Source: Carboxydothermus hydrogenoformans Z-2901
GTDB lineage: Bacteria; Bacillota; Z-2901; Carboxydothermales; Carboxydothermaceae
DNA: 64,000 nt
Reading direction: 5' to 3'
Assembly: GCF_000012865.1 (NCBI RefSeq)
Contig: NC_007503.1
Location: forward strand, 682,001-746,000
Notes under the pieces: model-generated
Databases searched by the model: none
What the model saw: only the letters and a program-made list of their open reading frames with translations
Told to the model about the DNA's origin: nothing
Position numbers and translations under genes: made by a program
Part shown: one piece after another, positions 36,327 through 64,000 of the stretch
Numbering within the stretch: position 1 is the stretch's first letter
How the letters are laid out: each line of letters begins with the position of its first letter

Positions 36327-37625
36327 ATGAAACGCACCAACGTCGTCCGGGTTCTTCCAGATAAACTGCAGAAGCAAGTTCTGGAGACCATTGGGGACCG
36401 CTGTGCTGCCCTCTGGAACGCCGTCCAGTACAGGTGCAGGCAAGCGTTCTTCAAGGGAGAATCTGTGCCCTCCTATGCCGCCTTATGCTCCGAGTTCAAG
36501 GAGCACCCAGCATATAAAGCCCTGCCCGCTCACATGGGGCAGGAGATCATCAAAAAAGCAAGGAAGGCGTGGGACTCCTACTTTGCCTGCCTGCGGTTGT
36601 ACCGGAAAGGCGAACTGGAGAAGCCGCCGCACATACCCCGCTACTGGAAGGACCGCCGCACGGGAAAGCGCATATTCCGCGTCATTCCCGTCAAGGCACC
36701 TACGTCCTACTCCCTGGATGCTCGTTATCTCTCCCTCACACTGCCGCAGGACCTCCGGAAGGGGCGGGGAGATCGCTTGGTCCTGCGCACGAAGGGTGTC
36801 CTGCGCTTCCACGGCAGACCTAAAACCCTGGAGCTTAAATATGACCCGGTAAAAATCCGCTGGTATGCCCATCAGGTAGTGGAGGTGCCGGAGCCAGCAA
36901 GAAAAGCCCGGCCCGAAAAGCATGCCGCCATCGACCTGGGTGTGAGGGTCCTGGTCGCCTTAGCCGTCGAAGGACTCAACCGCCAATTCCTTTTCTCCGC
37001 CCGCGAAGTCATCAAGGACTTCCTCTACTGGACCAATCAGATTGCAGGGGAGCAGTCGAGGCTCAACCGGGCAGGAAGGAAGACCTCCAGGAGGCTGAAG
37101 AGGCTTTATCAGCTCCGTGCCCGCAGGCTCAGGCACGCCTTTGTTGCTTTGGCTGCAAAAATTGTCCGCATTCTTAAACGGCTTCGTGTAACCACGCTAT
37201 TTCTCGAAGACCTGAGAGGCATTCGGGAGACCATGGACTTCGGGCCGAAGAACCTTCTGGTGCACAACTTCTGGGCCTTCCGCATGTTGAGGAACCTTAT
37301 CGAAGCTGCCTGCACTCGGACCGGGATAAGGGTAGTGCCGATGGAGCCGCGAGGGACCTCTTCCCGGTGTGCCGTCTGCGGTTCTTCTGTCAGGCGACCT
37401 GTGCGGCATAAAGCGGTGTGCGAGAAATGCGGTCGCGTCTGGCACGCCGATGCCAACGCGGCATTAAACATAATCCTTCAGGGCTCCTCGAAGGAGCACG
37501 GGGCGGAGGCTACGCCCTTAAAGCCGCTTGCCTTCCGGTGGAACCGCCACCGGTGGGTAAGCCGCTTCGAATCTGCCGCCGGTACGCCCTCTGGGGCGAC
37601 GAGCGGCAGCCGGATGGCGGCGTAA
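36327..37625 (+). CDS. tnpB: TnpB RNA-guided nuclease (IS605 OrfB family), complete
   Basis: A 432-aa TnpB with the full set of features: D in AAIDLGVRV (about 200), E in LFLEDLRGI (about 292), zinc ribbon CAVCG...CEKCG (about 351-372) and D in WHADANAALNI (about 380). The N-terminal helix-turn-helix and basic regions are typical. It cuts DNA next to a short transposon-adjacent motif when guided by its omega RNA. GC content is much higher than that of neighbouring genes. A TATAAT box lies 10 nt before the ATG. No tnpA accompanies it. Confidence 0.92.
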   Translation: MKRTNVVRVLPDKLQKQVLETIGDRCAALWNAVQYRCRQAFFKGESVPSYAALCSEFKEHPAYKALPAHMGQEIIKKARKAWDSYFACLRLYRKGELEKPPHIPRYWKDRRTGKRIFRVIPVKAPTSYSLDARYLSLTLPQDLRKGRGDRLVLRTKGVLRFHGRPKTLELKYDPVKIRWYAHQVVEVPEPARKARPEKHAAIDLGVRVLVALAVEGLNRQFLFSAREVIKDFLYWTNQIAGEQSRLNRAGRKTSRRLKRLYQLRARRLRHAFVALAAKIVRILKRLRVTTLFLEDLRGIRETMDFGPKNLLVHNFWAFRMLRNLIEAACTRTGIRVVPMEPRGTSSRCAVCGSSVRRPVRHKAVCEKCGRVWHADANAALNIILQGSSKEHGAEATPLKPLAFRWNRHRWVSRFESAAGTPSGATSGSRMAA

Positions 37626-46459: not shown

Positions 46460-46564
46460 TTATGCGTTCATACCTTCAAACTCTTTGTTCTTCATTAATG
46501 GAAATGGTATAATTTTCATAAAGAATATTCTGAAAATAAAAATAATGGTTCAAGGAGGGTCCAA

Positions 46565-49500
46565 ATGTTTATTACCGAAAACCAACTTGATGAATGGGTG
46601 CGGAGCAATAAGGGTGAAGCGCAAGGCACCATCGTTGAACTGATAGGGCGTCTTGTCGCTGCGTCATGTCCTAGGCCTCGAGAGCGCCGCTTTCATTGGA
46701 AGGACAGTATCGGCCAGCATGGCCCGGATGGGGTGTTGGATACTGATCTTGACTTTGAGCCGTTTGTCCCCAAAGGAAAATCATTTTGGGAAATTGGAAC
46801 CGGCTTAGGGACCCGCGATAAAGCCACTTCTGACTATAAAAAACTCACTGAAAATGTGCCTGAAAACATTCGGCGCGAAAGCACCTTCATCTTTGTGACG
46901 CCACTTTCCGGACAGAGAGAGTGGGAATATACATGGAAAAAGGACGCTCAGGCAGCCTGGCTTGAGGACCGCCGCACGAAAGGTGAATGGAAAGATGTTC
47001 GTGTCATTGATGGAACGAAACTGATCGATTGGTTGCGTCAGTTCCCGGCTATAGAACGGTGGCTTGCGCGCAAAATGGGTCTACCGGCACAGCAAATCGA
47101 CACACCCGAAGAGCGGTGGGAAGTGCTCCGAACATTCGGTGGACTTCCACTCACGCCCCAAGTTTTTCTTCTAAACAGAGAAGACGCTTACAATAAACTC
47201 AAAGAGGTATTTACTGGGAAAATTCAACGGCTTAAACTACAAACACACTTCCCTGACCAAATAGTCGACTTCGTTGCCGCTTGCGTGGCGACTCTTGACG
47301 AGGAGACACGCACAGATGTTGCCGGTCGGTGTTTGGTAATCTCGGGCATAGAAGCCTGGAATGCAATATGTGAGCAATATAGAAACCACATCTTGATAGC
47401 CGCACCTACTATCGATTTATCCGGGCATGAGGGTGTGATACTGCTTGAGAAAGCTCGGAGAGCCGGTCATTCTGTCATATATGGTGGTCTCTCTGGGGGC
47501 ATCCCGGAGGAGGATGCTGTTTTCCTTCCTCAGCCAAAGGTCTATCAGCTCAGTAAGGCGCTTGAGGAGGCCGGTTACAACGAAGAACGGGCTAGGCTCC
47601 TTGCTCAGAAAAGCGGTGGCAATCTCAGTACATTCCTGAAGCTTCTTCAAAACCTTTCTTTGACGCCAGAATGGGCTCAATGGCCCGACGCTGCAGATCT
47701 GGTTATCGCTGTGTTACTCGGAGCGTGGAACGAAAAGTACGAAGCTGATCGCAGGGTTGCGGAGACCCTATCTGGAAAACCCTATGAGCAATGGATAGCA
47801 AAGATACGTGAACTTGCGCTTCGTCCAAACACTCCTTTAACATATCAAGATGGTATATGGAAGTTTATTGCTCGTTATGAAGGATGGTATGCGCTGGGAC
47901 CTCGGGTTTTTGACGAGCACTTGGATCGCTTGCGAAGTGCAATGGTGACTGTTCTGCGTGAGAAGGATCCTAAGTTTGATTTGCCTACCGACAAGCGATA
48001 TGCTGCACAAATCTATGGAAAAGTCCTTGCTCACTCTCAATTGCTGCGTAATGGCTTGGCAGAGTCTTTGGCCCTTCTTGGTAATCACCCTGGGGCGCTG
48101 ACTTCTGCTTCGTTTGGAAAAGCTGAGGCAACGGCAATTCTCGCGGCCCGCGAGATCTTGAGTGACGCGGACTGGGTGCTGTGGGCGAGCTTGAACGATG
48201 TGCTGCCATTGCTGGCAGAGGCTGCACCTAATGAATTTTTGGATGCGGTTGAAGCAGCTTTACGTAAAACTCCGTGTCCGTTTGACGAGCTGTTTGCCCA
48301 AGAAACCTCTGGAATAACCAGTGCCAACTACATGACAGGGGTACTGTGGGCGCTGGAGACCCTGGCTTGGGATCCCGACCACCTTATCCGGGTGGTATGC
48401 ATCCTAGGGGCACTTGCCGCACGCGATCCAGGGGGTACCTGGGCGAACCGACCAGCCAATTCTCTCACTACGATTTTCTTACCCTGGCTACCCCAGACCT
48501 GCGCATCTGTTGCAAAACGTCGTACGGCTGTTGCTACTCTGTTCAATGAAAATTCAGATGTTGCATGGAAAGTTTTGTTGAGTCTACTCCCGGAGTCGCA
48601 CTCAGTATCGTTCGGTACACGAAAGCCTACGTGGAGGAAAACGATCCCTGATAATTGGCCAAAAGGCGTTACATACGCCGAGTACTGGGAACAGGTTAAG
48701 GGTTACGCAGAGATGGCTGTCAAAGTTGCCGAGGGTAATGTCCAAAGGCTTGTTGAACTGATAGCGCGGCTGCCGGATTTGCCGCCCTCTGCTTGTGATC
48801 AGCTTTTGACGCACCTTGAATCGGAGGCTATTCTGGCGCTCCCAGAAACCGACCGACTGCACTTATGGAATGCGCTTGCTGATCTGGTTACTAAACACAG
48901 AAAGTTTGCCGATACTGACTGGGCGATGGAATCTCGTCAGGTTGATAGAATTGAGGCCATTGCTAAACGACTTGCCCCGAAATCACCTGCTCTTCTTCAC
49001 AAACGGCTGTTCAGCGAGCGTGATTTCGATCTATACGAAGAGAAGGGCGATTTTGAACAGCAGGTAGAGCAGTTGGAGAGGCGCCGTCAGCAAGCAGTGC
49101 AAGAGATCGCTGAAACAGGTGGCTCACAGGCGGTCATTGATTTTGCCGCGTCGGTTCAGTCGCCTTGGCGTGTAGGGTTTTCATTCGGATGCGTTGCAAC
49201 TGTTGACGCTGACAGCGCAATATTGCCTGATATGCTCCATACTGAACGGAGGGATCTTGCGCAGTTTGTAGGCGGGTTTGTACGAGGTAGATTGCACAGC
49301 CAAGGTTGGGCGTGGGTTGACAAAATAGATACCAGCAATTGGACGCCTGACCAGATTGGGCAATTTCTCTCCAACTTACCGTTTGTCCCAGAGACTTGGA
49401 AACGTTCGGCGTGTCTTCTTGGCGACGACGAATTGCCATATTGGAAGAAAACAGTTGCGAACCCGTATGAGACACAGACTGGACTTGAACTTGCCGTTGA

Positions 49501-50362
49501 TAAGCTGATTGAGTATGACAGGCCGTTTGCCGCGATTCGATGCTTATACAGAATGCTGGTGGACAAGCAGCCTCTTGATAGCACAAGGGCTCTTTCCGCC
49601 TTGTTTGCGGCGCTAGATTCATCTGAAAGCGCGAGCGCAAACGACACTTACAAGATCGTAGAGATCATAAAGGCTTTGCAAAACGACCCAAAGACGAATC
49701 AGGACGATCTCTTCCGAGTCGAATGGGCCTATCTGCCTTTGTTAGAGCACAACCAGGATGCCTCGCCTAAATTGTTGGAACGCCGATTGGCAAGCGATCC
49801 TGATTTCTTCTGCGAAGTGATTCGCTTGGTTTTTCCGTCAAAAAATGAAGATTGCTCAACTCATGAACCAACGGAGCAAAACAAAAACATTTCAGCCAAT
49901 GCCTTGCGTCTCCTGTGGAATTGGAAAACGCCTCCTGGTACTCGTGCAGACGGTTCTTACGATGGTGATGCGCTAATTGCTTGGCTGGATGTGGTGAAAA
50001 GAAAATGTTCTGAAACTGGGCACTTGGAGATTGCATTAAAAAAGGTCGGACACGTGCTCGTGTATGCGCCTCCTGATCCTGACGGGTTGTGGATTCATCG
50101 GTCTGCTGCTGCGGTTCTTAATTCGGAAGATTCAGAAGAGATGCGTGTTGGATTTAGAATCGAGCTGTTTAACTCTCGGGGGATGCATTGGGTGGACCCA
50201 TCAGGAAAATCCGAGAGGAAACTGGCAGCCAAATATCGCAAGCAGGCTGAGGAAATTGAGGCGGCAGGTTACTACCGTCTTGCGAGCACACTAAAGGAAC
50301 TAGCAAAAGAGTACGACCGTGAAGCAGAACGCATTTTATCCCGACAACTTTCTGAAGAGTGA
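46565..50362 (+). CDS. Large protein with nuclease-like N-terminus, candidate anti-phage defence protein
   Basis: A 1265-aa protein of no family I can name. The first ~170 residues contain GPDGVLD (D55), GKSFWEIGTG (E76) and RDKATSDYKK (K86), a spacing compatible with a PD-(D/E)xK-type nuclease, then TFIFVTPL and a helix ending AIERWLARKMG. Residues ~200-370 resemble an NTPase-like module without a Walker A loop (VDFVAACVATLDEETR, GRCLVISGIEAWNAI). The remaining ~850 residues are helical, without known motifs. AAGGAGGG precedes the ATG. Higher GC and different codon use from its neighbours indicate transfer. It sits between a group II intron scrap and an hsdR scrap, beside a type I restriction operon. 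Function unproven. Confidence 0.55.
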   Translation: MFITENQLDEWVRSNKGEAQGTIVELIGRLVAASCPRPRERRFHWKDSIGQHGPDGVLDTDLDFEPFVPKGKSFWEIGTGLGTRDKATSDYKKLTENVPENIRRESTFIFVTPLSGQREWEYTWKKDAQAAWLEDRRTKGEWKDVRVIDGTKLIDWLRQFPAIERWLARKMGLPAQQIDTPEERWEVLRTFGGLPLTPQVFLLNREDAYNKLKEVFTGKIQRLKLQTHFPDQIVDFVAACVATLDEETRTDVAGRCLVISGIEAWNAICEQYRNHILIAAPTIDLSGHEGVILLEKARRAGHSVIYGGLSGGIPEEDAVFLPQPKVYQLSKALEEAGYNEERARLLAQKSGGNLSTFLKLLQNLSLTPEWAQWPDAADLVIAVLLGAWNEKYEADRRVAETLSGKPYEQWIAKIRELALRPNTPLTYQDGIWKFIARYEGWYALGPRVFDEHLDRLRSAMVTVLREKDPKFDLPTDKRYAAQIYGKVLAHSQLLRNGLAESLALLGNHPGALTSASFGKAEATAILAAREILSDADWVLWASLNDVLPLLAEAAPNEFLDAVEAALRKTPCPFDELFAQETSGITSANYMTGVLWALETLAWDPDHLIRVVCILGALAARDPGGTWANRPANSLTTIFLPWLPQTCASVAKRRTAVATLFNENSDVAWKVLLSLLPESHSVSFGTRKPTWRKTIPDNWPKGVTYAEYWEQVKGYAEMAVKVAEGNVQRLVELIARLPDLPPSACDQLLTHLESEAILALPETDRLHLWNALADLVTKHRKFADTDWAMESRQVDRIEAIAKRLAPKSPALLHKRLFSERDFDLYEEKGDFEQQVEQLERRRQQAVQEIAETGGSQAVIDFAASVQSPWRVGFSFGCVATVDADSAILPDMLHTERRDLAQFVGGFVRGRLHSQGWAWVDKIDTSNWTPDQIGQFLSNLPFVPETWKRSACLLGDDELPYWKKTVANPYETQTGLELAVDKLIEYDRPFAAIRCLYRMLVDKQPLDSTRALSALFAALDSSESASANDTYKIVEIIKALQNDPKTNQDDLFRVEWAYLPLLEHNQDASPKLLERRLASDPDFFCEVIRLVFPSKNEDCSTHEPTEQNKNISANALRLLWNWKTPPGTRADGSYDGDALIAWLDVVKRKCSETGHLEIALKKVGHVLVYAPPDPDGLWIHRSAAAVLNSEDSEEMRVGFRIELFNSRGMHWVDPSGKSERKLAAKYRKQAEEIEAAGYYRLASTLKELAKEYDREAERILSRQLSEE

Positions 50363-50372
50363 GGTATAGCCT

Positions 50373-50474
50373 GTGCATCCATTCACCCAATCAGTTGTTG
50401 AAGACGCCGCTTTCGCCTTTTTTTGCTCCTTAAATGGAATGGACAAAAATGTACGACATGATAACGTTAACTAG
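50373..50474 (+). pseudogene. N-terminal scrap of a type I restriction subunit (hsdR-like)
   Basis: GTG at 50373, with GTGAGG upstream, opens VHPFTQSVVEDAAFAFF, very like the first residues of some HsdR proteins (TESVVEDAALAWLE). After about 20 codons the similarity ends and the frame stops at 50472. It begins 10 nt after the 1265-aa gene, so both probably belonged to one operon before an insertion sequence cut it. Confidence 0.5.
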
Positions 50475-51320: not shown

Positions 51321-51848
51321 GTGGTAACTTCTATAGAACCGGAAGACTTAAATGTAGAAAATAGCAAAAATAATGGTCCAAAATTGCTGAAAAAATATCT
51401 ACAGTATGTAAGAGAAATTTCCAATGGCAATAGAGATGCAGCAAATGATATATTAAAGAGCTTACTTGATACAAATGTATTACGAGACAAGATTAAGCCA
51501 TTTGATAGCGGATTTGAAGAAGAAGTATATAATGCCTTGGTGAAGAGAGGTTATATTGTTGACAATCAGGTGGGGGTTGCAGGCTACAAAATTGATTTAG
51601 CAATCTATGATCCTATCCAGTCTAAATATGTTTTGGGTATAGAGTGTGATGGTGCGGCTTATCATAGTTCAAAAAATGCTCGAGAAAGAGATATACATCG
51701 GCAGAGATTTTTAGAATCAAAAGGTTGGAAGATATATAGAATCTGGAGTAGAGATTGGTGGGAAAATCCGCAAAATGAAATAGAGAAAATTGAGAAGTAT
51801 TTAAATGCTCTTGGTTTTAATAAACCAGCTAAAATGAATTGGGCTTAA
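51321..51848 (+). CDS. C-terminal fragment of a superfamily I helicase with a Vsr-like endonuclease domain
   Basis: A 175-aa frame. The nuclease part (about 60-165) has [48 protein letters not shown] and [16 protein letters not shown], the MTES_1575/DUF559-like endonuclease at the end of large DUF4011-type defence helicases. Upstream codons in the same frame read [19 protein letters not shown], the last helicase motif, but a stop lies just before. It is therefore the tail of a deleted ~1500-aa protein. If expressed from GTG 51321 it would be a free nuclease domain. Confidence 0.65.
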
Positions 51849-51922
51849 AAATTAACGCACAGCAGGTAAAGATATATTTTTGGCGAATAACAGTATTGAT
51901 TCTAAAATTAAGGGTGAGGTTA

Positions 51923-54367
51923 ATGGCAGTGGCAACTGAAAAAATAACTTTAGCGCAGTTAGAGACCCATCTTTTTAAAGCAGCAGATATTTTGCGGGGA
52001 AAAATGGATGCTTCCGAATACAAGGAATACATCTTTGGTATGCTTTTTTTAAAATATACCTCAGATGTTTTTGCTGCCAAGAAATTAGAGCTGGAAAACA
52101 TGTATAAAAACTTAGGCTTTTCTGATGAACAAATTAAAGAATTAACGGAAGACCCCAATTCATACGATATTTTTTATGTACCTCCAAAAGCCCGCTGGGA
52201 GTACATACTTAACTTAAAAGAGGACGTAGGAAACCAGTTGAATAAAGCGCTTTCTGCTTTAGAGGAAGCAAATCCTGAGTTAGATGGGGTTTTAAAGCAT
52301 ATTGATTTCAACGCTACCAAAGGAAAAATAAAGCTTAAAGACCAGCAGTTAATTGACCTTATCCATCACTTCAATAAATACACTCTGACTCCGGAAAGCT
52401 TTGAGTTTCCAGATTTGTTGGGTGCAGCATATGAGTATCTTTTAAAAGAATTTGCTGATTCGGCCGGGAAAAAAGGCGGCGAGTTTTATACTCCTGCCGG
52501 TGTCAAAAAACTGATGGTAAGGCTGGTTAAACCCGGCGAGAACATGACCGTTTACGACCCGACGGTTGGTTCGGGAGGCTTTTTGATTGAAGCTTTTCAC
52601 TATGTAGAAGAGAAAGGGCAGGATCGTTATAACTTAGGACTTTATGGGCAGGAGTTAAATGGACTCACTTGGTCGATTTGTAAAATGAACATGATTTTAC
52701 ACGGTATCTCAGATGCCCATATTGAAAATGAAGATGTTTTAACCACTCCGATGTTTTTAGAAAACGGGTATATCAAGCGCTTTGACCGGGTTCTGGCCAA
52801 TCCTCCTTTTTCCGAAAATTATACCCGGGCAAACATGCAGTATCCAGAGCGGTTTAAATACGGTTTTACTCCCGAAACCGGCAAAAAAGCAGACTTAATG
52901 TTTTTACAGCATATGATTGCCAGCTTAAAAGATGATGGGATTATGGCCACGGTCATGCCTCACGGCGTTTTGTTCCGGGGCGGACAGGAAAAGGTAATCC
53001 GGGAAGGGATTGTTAAAGAAGGTATAATTGAAGCAATCATTGGGCTTCCGCCTAAGCTTTTTTACAATACCGGCATCCCGGCCTGTATTATAGTGATTAA
53101 TAAAAATAAACCCGAACATTTAAAAAATAAAATTTTATTTATCAATGCCGACCGGGAATATGGCGAAGGAAGAAATCAAAACTTCTTACGCCCTGAAGAT
53201 ATCGAAAAAATTGTAAATGTTTTTGATGAGAAAAAGGAAATACCTGGCTATTCAAGACTGGTGGATATAAAAGAAATTGAAGAAAATGACTTTAATCTTA
53301 ACATCAGAAGATATGTAGATAATTCTCCAGAGCCAGAGATAGAAGATGTGCGGGCCCATCTTACCGGTGGGGTACCTTTACGGGAAGTAAGAAGGTATGA
53401 AGAGCAGTTTAAAAAATTTGGGATTTCTTACGCTATTCTTTTAGAAAAAAAAGATGAGCATTATTTAGAGTTTAATGATTTAATAACAGAAAAAAGTCAA
53501 ATAAGAGAAGTCCTTGAAAATGCTAATGAAGTGAAAAATACCATAGCAAAACATAAGGAAATGCTTTTAAACTGGTGGCAGGAAGTAGAACAGGAGATTT
53601 TAGAGTTTTACGGAAGAAATAACCTCTGGAGTTTTAGAAACGCTGCCCTGAATAAATTAAAGGAAAAGCTTTTGCCTCTTGGAACTCTTGATGAATTTAA
53701 AATTGCCGGCGTTTTCGTGAACTGGTGGGAAGAACTTCTTTATGATTTTAAGAGTATAGCTGCTACCGGCTGGAATAAAAACCTGGTGAATGATGAAAGG
53801 ATTAAGGAAAAATATTTCGGGAAGGAAATCGAAGAAATAGAAGAACTGGAAAGTAAAATTGCGGAAGTAGAAGGCGAACTAAATGAACTTTTAGATGAAG
53901 TTGAAGAATGGGATGAAGAAGAGCAGGGAGAGAAAACGGCGAGCAAAGTAAAAAATCATCTAAAAGAGCTGGTAAAAGAATTAAAAGAAAATAAGAGCGA
54001 ATCGGCAATTAAAGAAGCTAAAAGATGGGAGGAGTTATTGGCTAAAATAGCTGAAAAAGAAAAAGAAATTAAAAATGCCCGAAGCAAAAAAACGCAAAAA
54101 GAAAAAAATCTTGAAAATGAAGTTTCCAGAAGAAAAGAAAACTTAACCGAGGAAGAAGTTAAAGAACTACTTTTGGGAAAATTCTATGAACTTATCGATA
54201 AACAGCTTGAAAAGTATCTAAATGCGGAAAAGAAAGAAATCGTCAAAGTCTTTGAAAATCTTTGGGACAAGTATAATGTATCGCTTTCTGAACTCACAAA
54301 AGCAAGAGATGAAGAAGTAAATAAGCTAAATGAGTTTTTGCAAAAGCTGGGGTGTTACTATGAATGA
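51923..54367 (+). CDS. hsdM: Type I restriction-modification N6-adenine methyltransferase subunit
   Basis: An 814-aa HsdM. An N-terminal HsdM helical domain precedes the methyltransferase core with SAM motif [13 protein letters not shown] (about residue 215) and catalytic NPPFS (about 295). A long coiled-coil C-terminal part (about 600-800, rich in Glu/Lys) makes it longer than classical HsdM (about 530 aa). It methylates adenine at the target sequence set by HsdS. ATG 51923 was chosen over the upstream in-frame TTG since GTGAGGT precedes it and [14 protein letters not shown] is the usual start. Confidence 0.93.
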
Positions 54368-55571
54368 GGATAAAAAAATTCCAGAAGGATGGCAATGGGT
54401 AAAATTGGGGGATATATTAAAATATGAGCAGCCTTATAAATATATTGTAAAAAGTACTGAATATAAGGATAGCAATAGTATTCCTGTATTAACTGCAGGT
54501 AAATCCTTTATTTTAGGATATACAGATGAAAAAGATGGAATTTATACAAATTTGCCTGTAATTATTTTTGATGATTTTACAACTGAAAGTAAATTCATAA
54601 AATTTCCATTTAAAGTAAAATCTTCTGCACTGAAATTTTTAAAGGAAAAAAGTGATAACTTTGTTTTGAAATTTATTTTTGAAAGTATGCAATTAATAAA
54701 GTTTAATAATGTAGGTGGTGAGCATAAAAGACGCTGGATTTCGGAGTTTCAATTATTTAAAATTCCACTCCCCCCTCTTCCGGAACAACGAAAAATCGCC
54801 GAAATCCTTGAAACTGTAGATAATGCCATCGAAAAAACTGACGCTATTATTGAAAAATATAAACGCTTAAAACAGGGGTTAATGCAGGATTTATTGACAA
54901 AAGGTATTGACGAAAACTGGCAGATAAGAGATGAAAAAACCCATAAATTTAAGGATTCGCCGCTGGGGAGAATTCCGGAAGAGTGGGAAGTGATAATGTT
55001 GGAAAAGTGTGGTAAGATTGTAACTGGAAGTACTCCTTCCACAGAAATTCCGCAGTATTATGGTGATGAATTTCAATTTATTTCTCCTGAAGATATACAA
55101 GATAATAAGTATATACTTGAAACAAAGAAAATGCTTTCAAAACAAGGTTTTAATCTTCAAAGAAAATTACCGCCTAAGTCTGTATGTGTTGTATGTATAG
55201 GTTCAACCATTGGAAAAGTAGCTTTAACTTCTACTTTCTCTTCTACTAACCAACAAATAAATACGATAGTTCCTAGGCCTGAGTTATGGGAACCTGAGGC
55301 ACTTTATTATTTTGTTAGCTTTTATATTCAAAATCCTTTGAGAATGGAAGCTGGCATGCAAGCAGTTCCTATTGTAAATAAAGGTAAATTTTCAAAGATT
55401 CTTATTCCCCTTCCCCCTCTTCCCGAACAGCAACGCATTGCTGCAGTTTTATCTCAAATCGACGAAGCGATCGAAAAAGAACAGGCTTACAAGGAAAAGC
55501 TTGAAAGAATTAAAAAAGGCCTGATGGAAGATTTATTGACCGGGCGGGTCAGGGTGAATTCCCTGCTTTAA
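54360..55571 (+). CDS. hsdS: Type I restriction-modification specificity subunit
   Basis: A 403-aa HsdS with two target-recognition domains: [12 protein letters not shown] (about 10-150) and [21 protein letters not shown] (about 215-370), each followed by a conserved coiled coil with PLPPLPEQ(R/Q)(K/R)IA and a [25 protein letters not shown] end. The duplicated layout indicates a bipartite recognition sequence. ATG 54360 overlaps the hsdM stop by 8 nt. The first recognition domain is AT-rich, as often seen where such domains are exchanged. Confidence 0.93.
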
Positions 55572-55597
55572 GTATTTGGTTTGGGAGGCTTTTCTAA

Positions 55598-58500
55598 ATG
55601 TACAGTAAGCTTGATGAGGAGCATTATGTGGAAAATCCCTTCTTAGCCCAGCTTCTAAGGCTGGGCTGGAAGGTATACCGGCAGAATAAAGATAACCCCG
55701 AAGAGATAAAAGAGATTGCTTCATTTAATTCAGCTTTTGAACCGTCATTTGGTGAGTCGGTTAAGTTCAGAGAAAGCTTTAAAGAAGTAGTTTTAGAAAG
55801 CGTTTTAAAAGAAAGCCTGAAAAAAATTAATCCTTGGCTTATGGAGGACCAGATAAATGAAGTAATGCGGAAGATTACCACTCCTCAGGCCAATTCATTT
55901 TTGGAAATCAACCGGGAGATTCATGATTTACTTTTAGAAAACACCTCTGTATCCGAAAACCGCAGGACCGGTGAAAAAAGCCCCACGGTCAGATTTATTG
56001 ACTTTAGAAATCCGGAAAACAATACTTTTTTAGCTGTATCGCAGTATAAAGTAAACATTCCGGGAACAGAAAAACATATTATTCCCGATATCGTTCTCTT
56101 TGTAAACGGCTTACCTCTGGTGGTAGTGGAGTGCAAATCCCCGGCCATTGCCGATCCCCTAACCGAAGCTATAACTCAGCTCATGCGCTACTCCAACCGG
56201 CGGGGAGTAAAAGAAGGAAACGAAAAACTCTTCTGGTACAATGTTTTTATGATTGCCACTTCAAATCAGGTAGCCAAATACGGCACCATTACCTCGGACT
56301 TTGAACATTTTGTAGAGTGGAAAGACCCCTATCCTTATGCCCTGTCCGAAGTAAATCCTGACGGTGTTGTTACCAGTCAGCAGCTTTTAATTCACGGAAT
56401 GCTTTCAAAACAGAATTTCCTCGACTTACTGCACACCTTTACCATTTTTAAAGAAGACTCCAAAGGCGGTGTAATCAAAGTAGTTGCCCGCTACCAGCAG
56501 TTTAGAGCTGTAAAAAAGATGGTTAAACGGTTAAAAGAGGGGAAAACTCCGATTGAGCGGGGCGGGATTGTCTGGCACACCCAGGGGTCGGGAAAGTCGC
56601 TGACCATGATGTACATGGTCCGGGAAATGTACCACCAGCCGGAATTTGGTAGTTTCAAGATAGTTTTTATAACCGACCGGAAAGAATTAGAACAGCAGTT
56701 AAGAGACACCTCAAAAAGCGTTGGCTTTACTGTAAATCTTGCGGGAAGCATCGAAGAACTTAAACAGCTTTTAAAAACCAAAACTCCCGACCTGGTTATG
56801 GCCATGGTGCATAAGTTTCAGGAACGGGATTTAAAACGGGAGTTTCCCGTATTAAATACATCGCCCAATATCCTGGTAATGATTGATGAAGCGCACCGCA
56901 CTCAGTACAAGCTTTTAGGAGCCAATTTAAGAAAAGCCCTTCCCAATGCGGTTAGAATAGCTTTTACCGGAACTCCGATTGATAAGACTGAACAAGAATT
57001 TGGCCAGTACATAGACAAATACAGCATCCGGCAGGCAGTAGACGATGGGGTTACGGTAGAAATAGTTTATGAAGGCCGGGTTCACAGTGCCGAACTTTCC
57101 GATGAAGAAGCGGCCAATGCCAGGTTTGAGGATGTCTTTCGGGATGCTGATCAGGAGACAAAACGCCAAATCTTAGGCAAATATACCTGGAAGGCCTATC
57201 TTGAAGCAGAAGAAGTAATCAGGGATAAAGCAAAAGACATGATCGACCATTATGTGACGCATATCTTTCCCAATGGCTTTAAAGCCCAGGTGGTTACCGT
57301 TTCCCGTTTAGCAGCGGTAAGATATAAAAAGGCCTTAGAAGACGCCTTGAAAGAAAAAATTGCTGAGCTGGAAAAGAGCCAGAACCAGAAAGTAGACCTA
57401 AAGACGCTGAAAAAGTTAAAAGTAGGAGTCGTAATCTCCGGTAAGCAGAACGATGAAGCTATCTATCAGCCCTATACCAATCCGGTGGAGCACGAAAAAA
57501 TAATCCAGAGTTTTCGCCTTCCCTTTGGTAAAGTTAACGAGAGTGGCATATCGGGGGATGTAGGCATTTTAGTAGTTCAGAGCATGCTGATTACCGGCTT
57601 TGATGCTCCGATAGAACAGGTTATGTATCTTGATAATGTAATAAAAGGCCATAACTTACTGCAGGCTATAGCCCGGGTAAACCGGGTTTACAAAAACAAA
57701 TCCTGCGGCTATGTGGTGGATTATGTTGGCGTTTTAAAACATTTGGAAGAAGCACTGGCAATTTATGCTGATGAAGATTTAGCCGAAATCTCTAAGGTTG
57801 TTATTAATAAGGCAAAAAGTATTGCTAATTTGCATTATACCCATAGACAGATCGAAGAATTTTTTGCCAAAAAAGGCCTTAAAGACTGGCGGTCTCAGGT
57901 TGATGACTGCATTGACCTTTTAGTTGACGAACAAATCAGAAATGAATTTATCATGCTGGTTCGAAACTTCAATCGGGCAATGGATGCGGTTCTTCCTGAT
58001 GCTGAGGCCTTAAAATATCTAACAGATTTAAAGATATTAAGCTTTATCAAAGAAGCAGCCCGGAATCGGTATCGTGACAGTAAATTGAGTATAAGTGATG
58101 CCAGCCGGAAAATAAGGGAGATCGTAGAAGAGTACATTGTAGCCAAAGGAATCGACCCCAAAATTCCGCCAACCCCGCTTTTAGATGATAAATTTTTAAA
58201 TAAATTAAAAGGAAAGCCAGCTAAAGTTAAAGCTCAGGAATTGATAACAGCTATTAAAGAACATATTGTTGATCATTTTGAAGAAGACCCGGAGCTATAT
58301 GAAAGATTTTCCGATAGATTAAAAAGATTGCTGGAAGAATATCACGAAAAGTGGGAAATACTTGCCGAAGAGTTAGAAAGATTTAGGGAGGAAATTCAAA
58401 AGGGCCGGGAAGTAGAAAATACTTTTGGGTTTGAACCTAAGAAAGAAATGCCGTTTTTTGGCCTGCTGAAAAAGGAGTTATTTGGGCAGAAAGCCTTTAA

Positions 58501-58801
58501 TGAGCTGAGTGAGGAAGAAGTTAATTTCCTTGTTGATTTAACCAGAGACGTAATTGAAATAATTAAGAGAGAGACCAAAGCGGTTGACTTCTGGGAAAGC
58601 TACACCAAGCAAAAGCGGTTAAAAACCTATGTAGGAAACCACCTGCTGCAGAAATTAGTTCCAAAAGCTTCTGCCGGTAAGGGTGTTGCTGAAAATCCTG
58701 CTCCCTATCATGCCGATAGCTTAGCAAAAGTAATATTTAATAAAAGAAACGAAATAACGCAAAAACTCCTGGAACTTGCCTATTATCATTACGGGAAGTG
58801 A
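55598..58801 (+). CDS. hsdR: Type I restriction enzyme R subunit
   Basis: A 1067-aa HsdR. The N-terminal nuclease has PDIVLFVNGLPLVVVECKS (D and ExK, about residues 165-185). The helicase motor has Walker A HTQGSGKS (about 325), DEAHR (about 430), TGTP and motif VI QAIARVNRVY. It translocates DNA and cuts unmethylated DNA far from the site. It follows hsdS by 26 nt; the operon is complete and shows no frameshift. Confidence 0.95.
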   Translation: MYSKLDEEHYVENPFLAQLLRLGWKVYRQNKDNPEEIKEIASFNSAFEPSFGESVKFRESFKEVVLESVLKESLKKINPWLMEDQINEVMRKITTPQANSFLEINREIHDLLLENTSVSENRRTGEKSPTVRFIDFRNPENNTFLAVSQYKVNIPGTEKHIIPDIVLFVNGLPLVVVECKSPAIADPLTEAITQLMRYSNRRGVKEGNEKLFWYNVFMIATSNQVAKYGTITSDFEHFVEWKDPYPYALSEVNPDGVVTSQQLLIHGMLSKQNFLDLLHTFTIFKEDSKGGVIKVVARYQQFRAVKKMVKRLKEGKTPIERGGIVWHTQGSGKSLTMMYMVREMYHQPEFGSFKIVFITDRKELEQQLRDTSKSVGFTVNLAGSIEELKQLLKTKTPDLVMAMVHKFQERDLKREFPVLNTSPNILVMIDEAHRTQYKLLGANLRKALPNAVRIAFTGTPIDKTEQEFGQYIDKYSIRQAVDDGVTVEIVYEGRVHSAELSDEEAANARFEDVFRDADQETKRQILGKYTWKAYLEAEEVIRDKAKDMIDHYVTHIFPNGFKAQVVTVSRLAAVRYKKALEDALKEKIAELEKSQNQKVDLKTLKKLKVGVVISGKQNDEAIYQPYTNPVEHEKIIQSFRLPFGKVNESGISGDVGILVVQSMLITGFDAPIEQVMYLDNVIKGHNLLQAIARVNRVYKNKSCGYVVDYVGVLKHLEEALAIYADEDLAEISKVVINKAKSIANLHYTHRQIEEFFAKKGLKDWRSQVDDCIDLLVDEQIRNEFIMLVRNFNRAMDAVLPDAEALKYLTDLKILSFIKEAARNRYRDSKLSISDASRKIREIVEEYIVAKGIDPKIPPTPLLDDKFLNKLKGKPAKVKAQELITAIKEHIVDHFEEDPELYERFSDRLKRLLEEYHEKWEILAEELERFREEIQKGREVENTFGFEPKKEMPFFGLLKKELFGQKAFNELSEEEVNFLVDLTRDVIEIIKRETKAVDFWESYTKQKRLKTYVGNHLLQKLVPKASAGKGVAENPAPYHADSLAKVIFNKRNEITQKLLELAYYHYGK

Positions 58802-62385: not shown

Positions 62386-64000
62386 ATGAACACTGTTTCT
62401 ATTCCCAGTTTAGCCGTTTTTCAAGCCGCAAACAAGTACCTCCAGCGAGGCTGGCAGGTCATCCCGGTGCCTTTCAAACAGAAAAGTCCAGTCATCAAGA
62501 ACTGGCAAAACCTGCGTTTGACCCAAGAAGATATTCGACGTGTTTTCGCAAAACCCTCCAATGTGGGTATACTCTTAGGCGAACCCTCTGGCGGACTTGT
62601 GGACATCGACCTTGACGACCCATTAGCGGTAAAACTCGCCCCCTATTTCCTTCCATCTACCGAAGCTATTTTTGGCCGAACTTCGAAGCCTGCAAGTCAT
62701 TGGCTGTATCTCTGCTTTGGGGCAAAAACGACCAAATGGCAAGGCATTGATGGAGAAATGCTCGTTGAACTCCGTTCAACCGGTTGCCAAACGGTATTTC
62801 CGCCTTCGATACACCCATCGGGAGAAGCTATCACATGGCACAAAGAAGGGCAACCTACGCAAGTAAGTAAAGCAGAGCTTGAAAAAGCCTGCTCAAAACT
62901 TGCAAGTGCTGTCCTTATCGCAAAACATTGGCCTTCTCAAGGCACTAGGCAGGATACCGCTCTGGCCCTTGCAGGCGGGTTAATTCGCCTTGGATTCGGT
63001 GAAGAAGAAGCGGAAAGATTCATTGAGGCTGTAACCGTAGGAGCAGGAGACGAAGAAAGCAGGGACAGGGTGAAAACAGTCGTTTATACCGCACGCAAAA
63101 CAGGAAATTCACCAACCACCGGATGGAAACGATTGAGCGAACTCATTAGTGAGGAAGTGGTTAATAAGGTCTTGCAATGGCTTGGAGTGGAGAAACGAGA
63201 GGAAGAAAAGCAATCAAGGCCCAACGTTGAAATTAAACTTTGGACTGCTACGGAACTCATGGAAACAGACTTCCCCGAACCTTCGTGGCTTATTCCGGGA
63301 ATCCTACCCGAAGGCGGTTTGGTGCTATTGGCCGGAAAACCAAAAGTAGGAAAAAGCTGGCTTGCGTTAAATATGGCTTGCGGTTTAAGCAATGGCGGTG
63401 CTGTCTGCGGTATTCCTGCGGAAAAGGCTGTTAAGACCTTATACCTTGCGTTGGAAGATACTACCCGGAGACTGAAAACACGAATCCAACAGGCAGGATT
63501 AACGCCAAATGAAAATTCCCTCATTTCAACGACATGGCCCAAACTCAATGAAAAAGGCCTTACTCTGTTAGAAGAAACGATAAAGCAGGCTGGTATTCAA
63601 GTCGTAATCATTGACACATTGGCGAAGGTAAAACCTTCTTCTAAATCGAAGGTAGTTTCCTTGTATGACAATGATTATGAAATGCTCGGTAGTCTCAAAG
63701 AACTTGCGGACAGACTGGGAATCACCGTTGTAATCGTTCATCATTTGCGGAAAAGCGAAAGTGAAGATCCATTGGAAGAAGTTTCAGGAACTACTGGAAT
63801 CACCGGTGCGGTTGATACGATTTTGGTGTTGAAGCGTGCAAGGACTGAGGCGGACGGAACATTGTTCATAACCGGACGGGATTGCGAGGAACAGGAGTTA
63901 GCCCTTCGATTCAATGCAGGACGTTGGGAGGTGCTTGGAGAGGCGAAACTATACGAAATTTCGAAGGAGCGGAGAGAGATTCTCGAAGCAATCGAAAAAC
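62386..64000 (+). CDS. Bifunctional primase-polymerase and RepA-like helicase, 3' end cut by the window
   Basis: 538 codons visible. The N-terminal prim-pol domain (about 10-170) has GWQVIPVPFKQKSPVIKNWQ, the catalytic GGLVDIDLDD and KPASHWLYL. From about 290 a RecA-like AAA_25/RepA helicase has Walker A LAGKPKVGKSWLAL, Walker B VVIIDTLAK and VIVHHLRK. It would start and drive replication of the excised element. AAAGGAGGG precedes the ATG. The polypeptide runs past the right edge. Confidence 0.88.
   Translation, partial: MNTVSIPSLAVFQAANKYLQRGWQVIPVPFKQKSPVIKNWQNLRLTQEDIRRVFAKPSNVGILLGEPSGGLVDIDLDDPLAVKLAPYFLPSTEAIFGRTSKPASHWLYLCFGAKTTKWQGIDGEMLVELRSTGCQTVFPPSIHPSGEAITWHKEGQPTQVSKAELEKACSKLASAVLIAKHWPSQGTRQDTALALAGGLIRLGFGEEEAERFIEAVTVGAGDEESRDRVKTVVYTARKTGNSPTTGWKRLSELISEEVVNKVLQWLGVEKREEEKQSRPNVEIKLWTATELMETDFPEPSWLIPGILPEGGLVLLAGKPKVGKSWLALNMACGLSNGGAVCGIPAEKAVKTLYLALEDTTRRLKTRIQQAGLTPNENSLISTTWPKLNEKGLTLLEETIKQAGIQVVIIDTLAKVKPSSKSKVVSLYDNDYEMLGSLKELADRLGITVVIVHHLRKSESEDPLEEVSGTTGITGAVDTILVLKRARTEADGTLFITGRDCEEQELALRFNAGRWEVLGEAKLYEISKERREILEAIEK

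Follow-up and report, generated by a model that had tools for sequence, protein, structure and literature searches.

The gene at positions 46565..50362 (+ strand) of the analysed stretch of Carboxydothermus hydrogenoformans Z-2901 DNA (64,000 nucleotides, hereafter the window) probably encodes, on its own, an antiviral effector-sensor descended from a STAND protein of the Avs/PD-lambda-4 type. Its 1265-aa product had been predicted from the sequence, and the prediction is borne out by an intact ORF with an ATG start, a good ribosome-binding site (AGGAGG, 46553..46558, + strand, by reading of the sequence) and full-length homologues in many phyla. The layout of the protein fits an effector-sensor, as do its conserved nuclease residues and the way in which effectors are exchanged while the solenoid stays constant. 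Support for both this reading and the assignment to defence made in the original prediction comes from homology, fold, neighbourhood and domain swapping.

Residues 1-170 (46565..47074, + strand) form a nuclease-like domain, recognised by conservation, by its AlphaFold model and by weak Foldseek matches to nucleases. It is modelled as helix-strand-strand-strand-helix-strand, the strand and helix order of the PD-(D/E)XK core, and the D55/E76/K86 arrangement first read from the letters alone is upheld by alignment: D55 (codon 46727..46729, + strand) lies just before strand 2 and E76 (46790..46792, + strand) within strand 3, both predicted to be catalytic and both found in 60/60 aligned class-A sequences, and K86 (46820..46822, + strand), the predicted catalytic lysine, lies near the start of the following helix and is found in 59/60. 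D149 and W156 are invariant as well (60/60). Judged as a PD-(D/E)XK fold, the domain has conserved D, E and K residues and the right strand order, but its lysine is shifted and its Foldseek matches are weak, reaching the modification-dependent nuclease MspJI with the N-terminal model and endonucleases in the viral library. E76 aligns with the Q of the F-Q-x-K motif of PD-lambda-4A, which would mean a shift of the lysine to the helix, and because the usual E-x-K spacing is missing, the predicted nuclease activity could have been lost or altered.

The following alpha/beta module (residues ~181-366, 47105..47662, + strand) has a STAND/AAA+ fold, as seen in the Foldseek list of the N-terminal model, which is headed by Avs4 and continues with RFC, ORC, p97 and Apaf-1, and it aligns to the P-loop region of PD-lambda-4A. 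A motif scan found no full Walker A in this region among the family members examined, in agreement with the NTPase-like module without Walker A that had been proposed for the window protein. The short GK[ST] present in five relatives lies outside any full Walker A, and a GxxxxGKT in the relative L106 falls within the nuclease motif and was set aside as chance. With the P-loop gone, the switch would work without ATP hydrolysis. Modules of this kind are known as iSTAND, in which the Walker motifs have been lost, from BrxB, PglW and the vWA-MoxR ternary systems (PMC12839542, PMC7159879). The likeness is that of a STAND domain without Walker motifs within a defence or conflict system; however, iSTAND modules belong to multi-gene systems, whereas the dead module of the window protein lies within one effector-sensor chain, and it is missing altogether from the sister classes of that protein.

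The remainder of the protein (residues 366-1265) is modelled as nearly all helical with a pLDDT of 91, the other of our two AlphaFold models having a pLDDT of 88, and the very long helical region that had been noted corresponds to a HEAT-like solenoid. It starts with a winged-helix-like element (residues ~370-447, 47672..47905, + strand), identified from the secondary structure of the model and from partial matches of relatives, many of which align only from residue ~340-376 onward, and it continues as the solenoid proper (residues 448-1265, 47906..50359, + strand), the presumed sensor, whose Foldseek matches are HEAT proteins such as karyopherins and CAND1.

Avs4 (AVAST type 4) has the layout nuclease-STAND-helical sensor. 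It is the top PDB Foldseek match of residues 1-480 (E 1.2e-5), at a low global TM-score (0.29 of the query) and without a sequence match; PDB sequence searches with the family profiles returned chance matches only. Unlike Avs4, the window protein has no functional P-loop. According to its entry title, the Avs4 structure 8dgf was solved with a phage portal protein bound. A second parallel is DSR2, an effector fused to a long helical sensor that works without any NTPase and is switched by a phage tail protein (PMC11087589). DSR2 shares with the window protein the N-terminal effector and the long helical sensor (PMC11087589), but its effector is SIR2 rather than a nuclease, the best Foldseek matches of the solenoid do not include it, and there is no sign of common descent.

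The nearest named relative is PD-lambda-4, a system that came out of a phage-defence selection in E. coli (PMC9519451). In a PADLOC scan the best defence model for the window protein was PD-Lambda-4_A, matched weakly and in colinear order (E 1.2e-4, residues 546-686 against model positions 557-693). The match covers 140/1283 model positions, well short of full length, and true members score 1000-2500 bits. In a comparison of whole profiles, hhalign aligned our family with PD-lambda-4A at a probability of 98.8 (E 8.8e-17) over 970 columns, from the nuclease into the solenoid, with 94.5% for the C-terminal and 69.3% for the N-terminal sub-profile, compared with 0.2% for an unrelated HsdR of similar length as control. 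By profile comparison the family is therefore an orphan no longer but a relative of PD-lambda-4A, and the alignment supports shared descent of the whole chain. The two have a similar length, the same nuclease-NTPase-helical order and a common D-x-x-x-L-x-x-W-L motif after the nuclease core. They differ in the Walker A, which PD-lambda-4A has in all ten full-length copies examined and the window family lacks; in the nuclease motif, which is D...F-Q-x-K in PD-lambda-4A, whereas the lysine of the window family sits in the next helix; and in the PD-Lambda-4_B gene, which adjoins PD-lambda-4A in the copy examined (L114) but not the window gene, whose immediate neighbours are limited to short ORFs, the remnant of an hsdR and a fragment with an MTES_1575 domain. 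Because three defining features of PD-lambda-4 are missing, the window protein is not a member of that system but a distant relative, one that probably acts like PD-lambda-4, Avs and DSR2. The earlier statement that no named system has this layout has to be narrowed accordingly, since PD-lambda-4A has the same layout over 970 columns and Avs4 is the best structural match; what remains of it is a separate family set apart by a lost P-loop and a shifted catalytic lysine.

Across bacteria and archaea, the C-terminal winged-helix/solenoid module follows at least six N-terminal arrangements: the window nuclease, a Q-x-K nuclease, a calcineurin phosphoesterase, a PNP (purine nucleoside phosphorylase), a probable HEPN domain and a separate HetE-N adaptor gene. 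In most of these swaps the NTPase region is wholly gone. The Q-x-K nuclease defines class B (~25 loci), and homology between the N-terminal parts of classes A and B was tested for and not detected. The PNP, phosphoesterase and HEPN fusions were each found on one contig. In the phosphoesterase form (L040) only the nuclease is replaced; the NTPase-like module is kept and the match runs from residue 161. The PNP domain (L090, E 6.5e-15) begins in an upstream ORF of the same frame (L090:9191-9442), split off by one in-frame stop that may reflect a pseudogene, an assembly error or readthrough. The N-terminal domain of L084 has weak DUF4145 similarity and an R-N-x-x-H pattern from which it is probably HEPN-like. 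This form adjoins, within L084:4533-16877, a GmrSD-like (DUF262-type) protein and a large methylase, and the locus also holds a possible PglZ, as in BREX loci, all named by eye. Finally, two sensor proteins (L006, L104) are almost without an N-terminal domain and are preceded by a separate HetE-N gene of 106-107 residues (L006:7570-7890 and L104:9564-9887; E 1.5e-40 and 5.6e-33, in the order given), both the HetE-N protein and the large protein carrying a similar glycine-rich motif of the H-S/T-G-x-G-x-N type. A tree built from the C-terminal part shows class A to be paraphyletic and class B to be derived; nested within the tree, mostly with strong support, are the forms with phosphoesterase, PNP, HEPN and HetE-N. 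The tree mixes hosts of different phyla, as expected for horizontal transfer.

These exchanges bear directly on whether the protein is instead a type IV-like restriction enzyme that recognises foreign or modified DNA itself, the solenoid doing no more than position the nuclease on the DNA. The weak resemblance to MspJI, the N-terminal HTH of distant class-A relatives and the precedent of TgvAB, type IV defence genes inserted within type I RM operons (PMC11411939), all speak for such an enzyme. But the HTH domains fall into several kinds with no relation to one another (XRE, MerR-like), and the window class has none; moreover PNP and HEPN, for which DNA is an improbable target, are joined to the same C-terminal module, which is hence not tied to DNA cutting. 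We therefore consider a type IV-like enzyme unlikely, and favour a solenoid that senses a phage product.

The survey of gene neighbourhoods called for at the outset found them rich in defence genes, with type I RM prominent. Among 150 genes within 3 positions of 25 relatives, 227 PADLOC models matched at E 1e-15, mainly from type I RM, against 8 models among 150 control genes from family-carrying genomes; this control is small, and because RM models overlap, the model count overstates the difference. HMMs built from the HsdM, HsdS and HsdR of the window nevertheless agree with it, with matches in 20/99 loci and in 0/954 control ORFs (212 kb). At four loci (L033, L037, L041, L045) hsdR follows immediately after the gene, about -8 to 29 bp away; at two others (L021, L093) hsdS is on one side of the gene and hsdR, further off, on the other. 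The site is already known to receive defence genes, examples being TgvAB (PMC11411939) and DarTG2 (PMC12255303). A trace of the same arrangement is left in the window, where the frame VHPFTQSVVEDAAFAFFCSLNG begins 10 bases past the stop codon of the gene and ends soon after. These 22 codons (50373..50438, + strand, open frame to 50474) match the HsdR starts found downstream of relatives, and they are the best of the 127,864 six-frame 22-mers of the window compared with HsdR starts, the second best being the window's own intact HsdR. The gene has therefore probably come in with a type I RM operon that subsequently lost its hsdR.

Such proximity could mean that the protein guards type I RM in the manner of PrrC, watching HsdR or HsdM and firing when phage anti-restriction proteins disable them; the positions before hsdR or between hsdS and hsdR, and the remnant just described, speak for it. 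Yet about four fifths of the loci examined, plasmid copies included, have no recognised Hsd gene nearby, and the hsdS-hsdR gap is also home to unrelated systems, among them the defence system DarTG2 (PMC12255303), and we judge a guard to be a little less likely still than a type IV-like enzyme. Clustering of 1093 neighbours revealed no dedicated partner, only RM genes and a DUF1016-like nuclease (by eye) recurring. Of the single-gene or two-gene system first envisaged, the single gene is what the window holds, and for the window class we reject the two-gene form.

Further downstream the window contains an intact type I RM system (hsdM, hsdS and hsdR, 51839..58801, + strand; Pfam, PADLOC and NCBIfam), which is a neighbouring system. 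Between this and the remnant, a fragment with an MTES_1575 nuclease domain (51321-51848) resembles ProA and Hhe, two antiphage proteins, in their C-terminal part and is probably what is left of a further defence gene. What looked like transposase debris after the remnant had no Pfam match, and calling it such is a guess. An ORF with a primase-polymerase and an AAA_25 helicase (62386-63999) runs off the window end and suggests a mobile element nearby. The picture of a gene surrounded by restriction systems thus applies to its downstream side; no restriction genes were found upstream, where the genes include what we take by eye to be a rhomboid-like and an Hsp20-like protein. The GC content of the gene (50.3%) exceeds that of its immediate flanks (31-43%) but is only 1.25 SD above the other long ORFs of the window, the sole reference used, and the foreign composition that had been claimed is weak evidence. 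The highest GC among the long window ORFs measured, 59.3%, belongs to 36327-37625, by eye a TnpB-type transposon protein.

The gene is single-copy in its 2,401,520-base genome, was absent from the two congeners whose genomes were searched, and was detected in 5 of a sample of 299 further genomes of the phylum, with a weak match in one of the five. An alignment query of genome contigs confirmed 557 loci encoding relatives in one scan, of which 80 were retained, spread over many bacterial phyla and archaea; the C-terminal module occurs in 11/399 Pseudomonadota genomes, counting the centre genome, a known carrier. The alignment query also found 11 relatives in viral contigs, unlike a single-sequence scan of these contigs, which found none. 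By tblastn, 22 plasmid records hold relatives, mostly full length and at 25-44% identity. Because of these plasmid copies, some of which lie near par genes while others are fused to a HigA-like HTH, we also considered a maintenance protein of plasmids or mobile elements, acting in addiction or incompatibility rather than against viruses. This is very improbable: many copies reside on non-plasmid genome contigs, no conserved antitoxin partner recurs, and PD-lambda-4, the nearest named relative, was recovered by selection for phage defence (PMC9519451). We found no published description of the family in the literature searched, which covers few subscription journals and preprints. The 1265-aa protein has no match above cut-off in Pfam or NCBIfam, a DUF6630 match (E 0.048) having been discarded as chance, and since none of the Pfam, NCBIfam and full PADLOC models searched represents the family, it will probably escape annotation tools that depend on such models.

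Taken together, the portal-bound Avs4 structure, DSR2 and dead STAND modules elsewhere favour an antiviral effector-sensor whose solenoid senses a phage protein and releases the nuclease without ATP hydrolysis. In the resting state the HEAT-like solenoid would keep the N-terminal nuclease inactive; binding of a phage product by the solenoid would reshape the protein, probably by way of oligomerisation, and the released nuclease would cut DNA, so that the infection is stopped or the cell killed. In such a switch, which would not hydrolyse ATP, the part left to the NTPase-like module would be that of a scaffold.

Avs-type and NLR-type immunity are usually explained by an ATP-driven switch. More tentatively than the antiviral role itself, we suggest that the family may be a large, cross-domain, NLR-like immune family from which the nucleotide switch has been lost stepwise, the window class retaining a dead module and the sister classes none, with exchangeable effectors placed directly on a winged-helix/solenoid sensor. 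If this is true, stepwise loss of the switch would have led to immunity of the Avs kind that runs without ATP. A widespread switchless family in which sensor and effectors are kept would make the need for the switch directly testable, and six N-terminal arrangements on one sensor would offer a natural set for testing how a sensor controls its effectors.
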